Source: Hellea sp. (GTDB taxonomy: Bacteria > Pseudomonadota > Alphaproteobacteria > Caulobacterales > Maricaulaceae). From it: a DNA stretch of 40,783 nucleotides. Location: assembly GCA_020629195.1 (NCBI GenBank), contig JAHDDT010000004.1:1-40783 (forward strand), given 5' to 3'. A program made the position numbers and the translations under genes. How positions within the stretch are numbered: position 1 is the stretch's first letter; the number at the start of each line of letters is the position of its first letter. Positions 18,733 to 22,270 of this stretch are shown piece by piece. The notes below the pieces were generated by a model. The model made no database searches, was not told the DNA's origin, and was given only the letters and a program-made list of their open reading frames with translations.

Positions 18733-18751
18733 TAGTCCAAAATTAAGACCC

Positions 18752-18775
18752 TACTAACCCTGCAATTGGTTAGTA
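18752..18775. promoter_or_regulatory. Dyad TACTAACC-N8-GGTTAGTA upstream of SpmX-like gene (possible enhancer site or weak terminator)
   Basis: Perfect 8-bp arms, centred about 80 bp upstream of the predicted sigma-54 start site; no T-tract. Confidence 0.4.
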
Positions 18776-18816
18776 AGGCTTATCCCCATCCGTAAAGATA
18801 TCGCGCTATTCCCTTC

Positions 18817-18832
18817 TGGCGCGAGTTTTGCA
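18817..18832 (+). promoter_or_regulatory. Candidate sigma-54 promoter (TGGCGCGAGTTTTGCA)
   Basis: GG(18818-18819)-N10-GC(18830-18831) with TGGC and TTGCA core, 30-45 nt upstream of candidate start codons. Confidence 0.6.
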
Positions 18833-18861
18833 CAAATCCATTCCGAAGAACTAACTTTGTA

Positions 18862-20196
18862 ATGGATTGGGACAAAATGGGTCGTCAATTTAATATTTCT
18901 GACATGGGGCTTAAGCTTATCAAGGCTTATGAAGGCTTTCGCCCTGTAGATCGCACACTTGTCTCAGGGCAGCGTGTGGTCGGTTATGGTCACCGCTTGA
19001 TGGATGATAAAGCCGTGATGCTTTCTAAGCCAGAAGCTGAAAAGATTTTAAAAGACGATCTTGCGCCTTTTATTGATATGATTAATGAAAATGTGCATGC
19101 GCCATTGTCTCAGAGTCAGTTTGATGCTTTGGTTTCATTTGCTTATAATATAGGGCCAAAAGCCTTTTTAGAATCCGATACATTAAGAGCTTTAAATAAT
19201 GGCCGTCCTCTAGATGCCGCCAACGGTTTCGATATCTGGCGAAAGTCTGAAATTGAGGGAAAAACTTATGTCGTCGATGCGCTTATGCGCCGCCGTACAG
19301 CTGAGAAAGCGTTGTTCTTGCGGCCTGAAGGCCGCGCATTAAGTGCTCCAACTGTGGATTTGCCTCCCGTAGAAGATGAGACCATTGCGCTTCTCACAAC
19401 AGAAGATGCATTGCCCGTCTTCACAGCCGATGATGCCGCAGGGGTAGTGATAAATGCTCCATACTCAGCAACATCCGCACAAAACCGTCGCCGTGAAGAC
19501 GGCCTGTCGGGGACTATGAGCCTAAGCGAAATTACGGGTGATGCCGAAGTGATAGAAAATGGCCTTTATGAAGAGGATTCACCGTTCATTCCTGACACCT
19601 ATAAAGTTATGGATGATGACAATGAGCCTGAGCAGACTCGCCCATCTCTAATTGCGGCAGAAGATGAAAAACTGAAAGACAGATTAGACGCTTTGATTGA
19701 GGACGTAAAATCTGATCAAAAAGCAGCTGACACAGCAGATTGGCCAGAAAGCTTTATTGATATAGATACCCAAAGCGCGAATAAAGGCGCAAATATCATC
19801 CCGTTTTCAATCGAAAAACAAGATGATATTGTCATTACGCCTGATTTGTTGGTTGACGCCGAGGTGGAGCAGGGGGCTAATGATAGGATCATTATTGAAG
19901 ATCACGCAGCGGATGATGCAATCTTGCAGTCTCGTACAGAAGACAGTGCAAGCCGCTATATTGATTTAAATGCACGTCCCGAAGACAACGTGCCCGTTTC
20001 GACCATACCTTATATGATTATGATGTTTTTGGGTTCAGTTCTTTTTGGGGGCGGCATTGCTTCATGGCTTAAAAACAAAGGTTTGATGTTCGGAGAGTTT
20101 GGCCCGATGCTGATTATGTGCAGTATTTTTATCGGTGCGATGATGTTGGCAGGCGCCTTGTATTATGCTGCGCGTCAAAGCTTTAAGCGTTCATAA
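18862..20196 (+). CDS. spmX: SpmX-like GH24 lysozyme-domain protein with acidic linker and C-terminal TM helices
   Basis: GH24 domain (LIKAYEGFRPVDRTLVSGQRVVGYGHR...FDALVSFAYNIG), long D/E-rich middle, two C-terminal hydrophobic helices (IPYMIMMFLGSVLFGGGIASWL, PMLIMCSIFIGAMMLAGALYYAA): the Caulobacter SpmX architecture. MGRQFN at 18877 is an alternative start. Confidence 0.8.
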   Translation: MDWDKMGRQFNISDMGLKLIKAYEGFRPVDRTLVSGQRVVGYGHRLMDDKAVMLSKPEAEKILKDDLAPFIDMINENVHAPLSQSQFDALVSFAYNIGPKAFLESDTLRALNNGRPLDAANGFDIWRKSEIEGKTYVVDALMRRRTAEKALFLRPEGRALSAPTVDLPPVEDETIALLTTEDALPVFTADDAAGVVINAPYSATSAQNRRREDGLSGTMSLSEITGDAEVIENGLYEEDSPFIPDTYKVMDDDNEPEQTRPSLIAAEDEKLKDRLDALIEDVKSDQKAADTADWPESFIDIDTQSANKGANIIPFSIEKQDDIVITPDLLVDAEVEQGANDRIIIEDHAADDAILQSRTEDSASRYIDLNARPEDNVPVSTIPYMIMMFLGSVLFGGGIASWLKNKGLMFGEFGPMLIMCSIFIGAMMLAGALYYAARQSFKRS

Positions 20197-20282: not shown

Positions 20283-21221
20283 ATGACATCTATGCTTAAA
20301 GATTGGACTGAGAGCCACTCTGCTCGTTTTCAAAAAGAAATCATGCCTTTCGAACATGGTTTACAGGATACGGGTTTGTTTTCAGATGAGGCTTTGATTG
20401 ATCTTTTGAATAAGCATCCCAAGAGCTTACTTGATGTTTGTACGATGGGTAACTCTGAATGCGGACTTTTTCCTAACAGAATGAAAACGGGCGATTTTCG
20501 TGGTGTTGATGGAAAGGTTCTACTCGAAGCCGCGAAAGCTGGTAAAATCTGGATTAATGTTCGTCGTGGTATGAATGTTCATCCTGAGTATAAAGCTGTA
20601 CTCGACCAGATGTATGGGGGTATTGCAGAGGAAACAGGTAATAAGGCTTATAATGCGAATGGCGGCATCTTAATTTCCTCACCGATCGCAAAAGTGCCAT
20701 ACCATTTTGACAAGACAGAAACCATTCTTTGGCATGTGCGCGGAAAAAAACGCATGTATCTGTACCCGCTGACGGAAAAGTTTATTCCAGATCGGGCTTA
20801 TGAAGCTACGATGCTGAGCGACCTTGAAGATGACCTCCCATATATATCTGATTTTGATAAAGAGGCGACAATTATTGATTTAACTGAAGGGCAAGCTTTG
20901 TCGTGGCCGCTAAATATGCCACATCGCGTAGATAACCAAACATTTTGCGTGTCTGTTACAACAGAGTACTCGACCAAAAAATCGGGTATGAAAAACGCAG
21001 CTATGATTGCCAATGCAACTTTGCGTCATCGATTTGGGATTGAGTCTAGTTATTCCAAGGCTGGCCCTGTTAATCGTCAGCTTAAGTCAGTATTTGGACG
21101 TGTGATCCGCAAAGCTGGCTTGGCGGTAACAAATGATAAAATTGATATGGTGACCTTCAAGGTTGACCCAGATGCGCCGGGATACGTCGTTAACGTCGAT
21201 CCCTATCAAAGAGATTTTTGA
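20283..21221 (+). CDS. JmjC/cupin-like putative Fe(II)/2OG oxygenase, paralogue A
   Basis: GGILISSPIAKVPYHFDKTETILWHVRGKKRMYLYP (HxD) and distal LNMPHRVDNQ (His); near-collinear with the next ORF. Confidence 0.6.
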   Translation: MTSMLKDWTESHSARFQKEIMPFEHGLQDTGLFSDEALIDLLNKHPKSLLDVCTMGNSECGLFPNRMKTGDFRGVDGKVLLEAAKAGKIWINVRRGMNVHPEYKAVLDQMYGGIAEETGNKAYNANGGILISSPIAKVPYHFDKTETILWHVRGKKRMYLYPLTEKFIPDRAYEATMLSDLEDDLPYISDFDKEATIIDLTEGQALSWPLNMPHRVDNQTFCVSVTTEYSTKKSGMKNAAMIANATLRHRFGIESSYSKAGPVNRQLKSVFGRVIRKAGLAVTNDKIDMVTFKVDPDAPGYVVNVDPYQRDF

Positions 21222-21319: not shown

Positions 21320-22270
21320 ATGGTGGTAGAAATGGATAATTTAGTCCGAGATTGGTCTCAAAAGCACACAGAACGTTTTGAGAAGGAGATCGTCACATTC
21401 AAGCATGGTTTAAATGAGACGGGCCTTTTCACGGATGAAGCCTTAATCGAACTATTGGAAAAACACCCTCATGAAATGATAGATGTGTGTACGATGGGAG
21501 ATCCTGAACATCCAATTTATCCAAACCGGTTCAGAACTGGAGATTTTCGTAATGTTCCAGGTGAAGTCATTCTTGAAGCTGCCAAAGCTGGGAAAGTATG
21601 GATTAATCTTAGGAAGGGTATGAATTTACATTCGGAGTATAAAGAGGTTCTTGACCAAATGTATGGTGACCTTGGCTCACAAATTTCCAGAAAACCTTAT
21701 AATGCAAATGGTGGCATTTTGATCTCGTCCCCAATTGCCCAGGTGCCTTATCACTTTGATAAAACTCATATCATACTTTGGCACGTTAGAGGTAAAAAAC
21801 GAATTTATATTTACCCAGAAAATGAAACATTTATTCCTGATAGAGCTTATGAAGCCAAGATGTTGAAATATTTGGATGATGATTTGCCTTATAAGGCGGA
21901 ATTTGAACGCGAGGCGCAGTGTTTCGACCTCGAAGACGGGCAGGCGATTACTTGGCCGCTAAACTCCCCGCACCGTGTTGATAATAGAGAATTTTGTGTC
22001 TCCGTGACGACAGAGTATTCAACGCATCAAAGTAAAGTTAAAAATGCTTGTATGGTCGCCAATGCAACATTGAGGCATAATTTTGGAATTGAGTCGAGCT
22101 ATAGGCAATCAGGCCCTGTGCAACGACAGCTTAAATCTATTTTCGGATATGGGCTCAAAAAAGCAGGGCTGGTTCCCACTGATGATACTCAAGATCTAGT
22201 AACATTCAAAATTGACGCCAATGTTCAAAATTACATCCTCGATACAGAACCTTATCAACGTAATTTTTAG
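21320..22270 (+). CDS. JmjC/cupin-like putative Fe(II)/2OG oxygenase, paralogue B
   Basis: GGILISSPIAQVPYHFDKTHIILWHVRGKKRIYIYP and LNSPHRVDNREFCVSVTTEYST; tandem paralogue of 20283..21221. Confidence 0.6.
   Translation: MVVEMDNLVRDWSQKHTERFEKEIVTFKHGLNETGLFTDEALIELLEKHPHEMIDVCTMGDPEHPIYPNRFRTGDFRNVPGEVILEAAKAGKVWINLRKGMNLHSEYKEVLDQMYGDLGSQISRKPYNANGGILISSPIAQVPYHFDKTHIILWHVRGKKRIYIYPENETFIPDRAYEAKMLKYLDDDLPYKAEFEREAQCFDLEDGQAITWPLNSPHRVDNREFCVSVTTEYSTHQSKVKNACMVANATLRHNFGIESSYRQSGPVQRQLKSIFGYGLKKAGLVPTDDTQDLVTFKIDANVQNYILDTEPYQRNF

Follow-up and report, generated by a model that had tools for sequence, protein, structure and literature searches.

SpmX marks one cell pole in stalked bacteria, and TacA is responsible for part of the transition from swarmer to stalked cell in Caulobacter. 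The stretch of Hellea sp. DNA analysed here (contig JAHDDT010000004.1, 40,783 nt, hereafter the window) carries an spmX-like gene behind a sigma-54-type element, and the locus raises the question of where near this promoter the activator would bind. The original prediction placed a candidate TacA-like enhancer at a perfect dyad about 80 bp upstream of the implied start site and regarded the stalked-pole circuit as conserved. We examined the identity of the gene, its promoter and the two palindromes that flank it; the coordinates are collected in Table 1.

Table 1. Features of the spmX locus, in positions of the window.
Feature	Position	Strand	Basis or remark
Preceding ORF, 436 aa	17422–18732	+	Between mgtE and spmX in the window's lineage; no Pfam match
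Upstream dyad	18752–18775	+	Most likely 3'-end hairpin of the preceding transcript
Sigma-54 −24/−12 element TGGCGCGAGTTTTGCA	18817–18832	+	Top-scoring 16-mer of the window; conserved in spmX leaders of the order
Transcription start (inferred)	18844	+	Spacing mapped in Caulobacter (PMC4287350)
Downstream palindrome TGTAATGGATTGGGACA, candidate TacA site	18858–18874	+	Member of TGTCYC-N5-GRGACA; leader alignment, motif finding
spmX CDS, 439 aa	18877–20196	+	Probable start ATG 18877; ORF as listed opens at ATG 18862
GH24-like muramidase domain	18922–19305	+	PF00959, residues 21–148 of the 444-aa reading; alignments with 6h9d and 8app
Acidic linker	19342–19989	+	D+E 53, K+R 16 in 225 residues (156–380)
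Two C-terminal hydrophobic (TM) segments	19990–20160	+	Kyte–Doolittle peaks

A Pfam profile search identified a Phage_lysozyme domain (PF00959, E 1.2e-27) in the translated ORF, and the acidic composition of the linker and two Kyte–Doolittle peaks at the C-terminal end (residues 372–398 and 403–432) complete the architecture that had been predicted. The closest structure in the PDB is 6h9d (E 2.1e-36), named SpmX-Mur-Ae, the muramidase of Asticcacaulis SpmX (PMC11594527); the runner-up, an endolysin, follows at 6.5e-22. In the alignments, the active-site Glu is retained, and the Asp and Thr of endolysin 8app are replaced by Leu and Val in the window protein and by Leu and Met in 6h9d. The protein thus combines the features that characterize SpmX, namely a muramidase domain nearest to a known SpmX, a long linker rich in charged residues and a pair of C-terminal TM segments. 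We give practically no credence to the idea that it is a phage endolysin or a prophage remnant; the PF00959 domain and the endolysins among the PDB matches would fit it, but SpmX-Mur-Ae is the best match by far, the active-site Asp and Thr are replaced as in SpmX, the linker and TM segments are present, and the locus adjoins mgtE in many relatives. SpmX orthology rules the endolysin identity out. Judged by its sequence, the window gene is a true SpmX orthologue, and the original assignment, for which a closest homologue among the phage endolysins was the counter-indication, is strongly supported by the orthologues.

The coding sequence is probably shorter than listed. In four relatives (L002–L005) the stretch between the two candidate start codons is one base longer, which puts the upstream ATG out of frame; the reading frame from ATG GGT CGT CAA is kept in all of them. 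Since only this start is conserved, translation probably begins at 18877 and yields a protein of 439 aa. The ATG at 18862, although in frame, probably does not serve as a start, and automatic annotation would add five residues to the protein. Two tandem and clearly similar cupin-like ORFs lie 3' of spmX (20283–21221 and 21320–22270), the first with a weak Cupin_8 match below the cut-off.

The promoter element has the GG-N10-GC spacing that had been noted for it, with near-consensus flanks. No other stretch of the window matches TGGC-N7-TTGCA exactly, and the element is the highest-scoring sigma-54-type 16-mer on either strand (22.7; the second scores 21.7). Taken alone, the box proves little, because matches with at most one mismatch are as frequent in the window (16) as in shuffled sequences (15.3). 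Conservation was therefore scored in 80 Caulobacterales spmX loci (named records) against random windows from the same loci: the box exceeds the 95th percentile of random windows at 92.5% of the loci and the 99th percentile at 62.5%. Some weak or misplaced matches, such as those at L114, L127, L145, L146 and L148, should not pass for boxes. The boxes lie mostly at similar distances from the start. The GG/GC element is thus conserved across the spmX leaders of the order, and with RpoN encoded in the same genome (G000:C115, PF04552, E 1.8e-57), the prediction of a sigma-54 promoter has gained strong support from the orthologues. In Caulobacter, the RpoN motif of spmX is located at −26 of the mapped primary start (PMC4287350). 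Carrying this spacing over, we infer that spmX transcription in the window's organism starts near 18844.

Caulobacter spmX needs TacA (PMC7010744), and a candidate for this activator is encoded in the window's genome. In every Caulobacter, Asticcacaulis and other-family genome tested, the sigma-54 activator G000:C142 has one counterpart at 62–66% identity, and the second-best protein is below 50%. In a Caulobacter orthologue (L394), the residue that accepts the phosphoryl group is D54, as is known of TacA (PMC7010744). We take G000:C142 to be a one-to-one TacA orthologue. The helix-turn-helix (HTH) of the orthologues is of the Fis type, and its recognition helix is nearly identical throughout the sequences of the order that were compared; D54 is conserved as well.

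Within the genus, the stalked-pole circuit was followed through RpoN, TacA, SpmX and PopZ. Two congeners with genomes of 1.8 Mb, G001 (97% complete) and G002 (92%), jointly lack spmX, rpoN, tacA and popZ (PF10691), an apparent loss of the stalked-pole module. G004 has rpoN, tacA and popZ and gave no spmX match; as this assembly is 88% complete, the absence may be an assembly gap.

Given that TacA has one and the same recognition helix throughout the order, its binding site should also be conserved, and the upstream dyad departs from this expectation. The sequence itself, TACTAACC-N8-GGTTAGTA, is exactly the perfect 8-bp dyad originally described. When the 144-bp intergenic region is shuffled with its dinucleotides kept, a dyad of this kind arises in about 1.3% of cases, and over the whole window there are 15 against 7.6 expected. 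It is present in L001, changed in L003 and L074, and absent from the closest sister (L002) and from L004–L006. As RNA, it folds into a hairpin of −14.9 kcal/mol (z −4.4), 19 nt past the stop codon of the preceding ORF; the hairpin keeps its pairing in L003/L074 through the paired change TGCTAAC/GTTAGCA (−11.1 kcal/mol), and L002 has no hairpin. The dyad is confined to the lineage in which mgtE and spmX have the extra ORF between them. In many other relatives mgtE comes immediately before spmX and the intergenic DNA is short; in several of these, the −24 element follows the mgtE stop codon at a distance of only about 25–35 bp, so that a similar site could fit only inside mgtE. No dyad of this kind was seen upstream in other genera, and motif searching upstream returned the conserved coding end of mgtE rather than a regulatory site.

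It is most likely from these sequence features that the dyad forms the 3'-end hairpin of the preceding ORF's transcript. That it serves as a TacA enhancer we consider very improbable: its distance from the inferred start is the usual one for an enhancer, it is unlikely to arise by local chance, and L003/L074 retain it in changed form, but L002 and L004–L006 do without it although their sigma-54 boxes are intact, nothing similar stands upstream in other genera, and its position just past a stop codon and its good RNA fold point to a transcript end. On the minus strand (18748–18779), the same hairpin has a T-rich tail behind it and obtains a terminator-like score. The original interpretation is partly supported: of the proposed circuit, RpoN, the TacA orthologue and SpmX are all encoded in the window's genome, and the choice of this dyad as the TacA site finds no support.

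A second conserved element emerged when the spmX leaders were aligned on the sigma-54 box. Motif finding on 76 non-redundant leaders gave TGTctcgatTTGGgACg, and the palindrome-constrained search gave TGTcCCaaattGGgACA. Its log-likelihood of 433 compares with 20–33 for shuffled sequences, and within the 75 bp upstream the best palindrome reaches 124. No palindromic signal around the promoter is stronger than this dyad; since the leaders share descent, these values reflect conservation and not independent origins. In the window, it spans about +15 to +31 relative to the inferred start, and its left half, TGTAAT, matches the consensus only in part. The left TGT is nearly invariant among the leaders.

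The distance of the dyad from the −12 element falls into discrete classes: 20–25 bp in 58 leaders, 33–35 in 12 and 43 in one, with none between. The classes lie about one helical turn apart, and the class has changed four times along the SpmX tree, which suggests that the helical phase relative to the −12 element matters. Ribosome binding may account for part of the conservation of the right half and part of the phasing, since this half-site lies at Shine–Dalgarno distance from ATG 18877 in the window and from the ATG in the window's family; the interval is often exactly 3 nt, even where the spacing to the −12 element is of the longer class.

The last observation bears on whether the element works in RNA, as a leader hairpin or an extended ribosome-binding site. 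It does lie within the 5' leader, and GGGAC or GGAAC stands at Shine–Dalgarno distance in many relatives. Pairing between the half-sites (0.733), though, is below that in column shuffles (0.772), with 1000 of 1000 shuffles reaching the observed value, so that the hairpin form can be rejected for want of covariation between the halves. The near-invariant left TGT, the distance from dyad to start codon, which ranges from about 0 to 13 in most rows, and the dyads located well upstream of the start codon at the two Caulobacter genes described below also speak against a function in RNA, and we regard it as rather improbable. The dyad instead has the form of an NtrC-type operator, with two 6-bp inverted half-sites and a 5-bp spacer, conserved as DNA and not as RNA pairs.

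The same arrangement recurs before other genes. In Caulobacter, a gene for a TPR-like protein (L342, L346, L337, L381) is preceded by a box, a gap of 26–27 and the palindrome, with constant half-sites TGTCCC/GGGACG and a spacer of GGGTT, GGGGT or GCCTT; a gene for a 100-aa protein (L362, L381, L387) has a box, the same gap and the dyad TGACCC/GGGAC. Neither protein has a Pfam match. The 100-aa gene follows the TPR-like gene, each with its own box and dyad at the spmX spacing (L342, L362, L381, L387). With gaps of 24–28, the module also precedes three further genes: L234 has it at a sugar transferase gene (PF02397), L235 at a gene for a 60-aa protein, and two genomes of genus g12 (L258, L259) at a gene for a glycine-rich secreted protein. 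A similar glycine-rich protein of the window's own genome (L297) has a box without the dyad.

The patterns used to find these modules prescribe most of the half-site bases; the consensus is thus not independently defined by them, and the independent part of the evidence lies in the boxes, the spacing and the varying spacers. In an order-wide scan, non-spmX matches with a correctly placed GG occurred at about chance frequency, the Caulobacter promoters apart, so that the best support outside spmX comes from the two Caulobacter promoters. A search with the composite box–dyad pattern returned credible matches mainly at spmX. Three genomes of the genus were examined for sigma-54-like boxes with the dyad: the majority of the boxes fall within coding sequence, and none except that of spmX has the full dyad; in the window's genus, the module was seen only at spmX. 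In two genomes, one of them the window's own (L309 and L316; G000:C72, G006:C5), a conserved GGCGCGGCTCTTGCA box stands about 62–63 nt before a DUF1465 (RcdA-type) gene and is followed by GGGGACTGTCC; this may be a sigma-54 promoter of a gene that regulates CtrA turnover.

Another protein could occupy the downstream palindrome, for example a repressor of spmX outside the swarmer-to-stalked transition, with TacA using an undetected site or no specific site. A position directly after the start suits a repressor, and some sigma-54 activators need no bound enhancer, a point taken up in PMC12421884. Against this, the dyad accompanies sigma-54 boxes at several genes and at similar spacing, it has the geometry of NtrC-type sites, and no further conserved dyad remains for TacA; we hold this alternative to be unlikely, if somewhat less so than a role in RNA.

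On balance, we lean towards the explanation that TacA activates the spmX sigma-54 promoter from the downstream palindrome. Transcription would proceed from the sigma-54 promoter to a start near 18844; the activator would be the TacA orthologue of the window's genome, bound to the conserved palindrome just past the start, on a side of the helix that is conserved with respect to the −12 element, from where its AAA+ ring would open the polymerase complex. TacA is proposed at about +15 to +31 given the TacA requirement of spmX in Caulobacter, the Fis-type HTH and the NtrC-site geometry. The joint absence of spmX, rpoN, tacA and popZ from G001 and G002 and the recurrence of the box–gap–dyad module before two other Caulobacter genes argue for this explanation, and the chance-level non-spmX matches across the order and the partial left half of the window's site weaken it. 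A site so close downstream is also unusual for a sigma-54 activator, which counts against the proposal. No description of a TacA binding site was found in the literature searched.

More tentatively, the arrangement could be an order-wide TacA module, in which a −24/−12 box is followed by TGTCYC-N5-GRGACA about 22–28 bp on or one turn further, and activation occurs at close range from downstream without a long loop; if so, the TacA regulon would be definable by sequence. The spmX gene and its promoter are of a known kind, and the downstream palindrome may be the novel part, as a variation on sigma-54 promoter architecture. Should the reading of the palindrome as a TacA site be right, the TacA regulon would become predictable across Caulobacterales, and spmX would offer a clean case of a sigma-54 activator acting from just downstream of the start. 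A conserved candidate site at a promoter with a mapped start, as in Caulobacter, permits a direct test.

Among known systems, the NtrC binding site, TGCACY-N5-GGTGCA, is close in form: it is likewise a palindrome 17 bp long, in which 6-bp half-sites stand on either side of a 5-bp spacer (6-5-6), whereas the dyad has TGTCYC or TGACCC half-sites and lies past the start. With the SpmX proteins of Caulobacter, Asticcacaulis and Hyphomonas neptunium, the window shares the GH24-like domain with its altered active site, the acidic linker, the two C-terminal TM segments and the sigma-54 box; the protein is essentially alike, and the locus differs in the extra ORF that separates spmX from mgtE, its neighbour in many relatives. 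In H. neptunium, SpmX localizes to the stalked pole and recruits DivJ (PMC7200025). The ShkA–ShpA–TacA/sigma-54 control of Caulobacter (PMC7010744, PMC4287350) has its counterparts here in RpoN, the TacA orthologue and the box at the expected distance, and the difference lies in the conserved palindrome downstream of the start, which the literature searched does not describe. A parallel in position is FleQ, an NtrC-family activator regarded as working from the downstream side of a sigma-54 promoter, whose sites are given, in the work cited in PMC10723142 (Jyot et al. 2002), as lying atypically downstream of the RpoN site; as far as that citation goes, it concerns another protein and another site, while the dyad of Caulobacterales stands at a close and fixed spacing.
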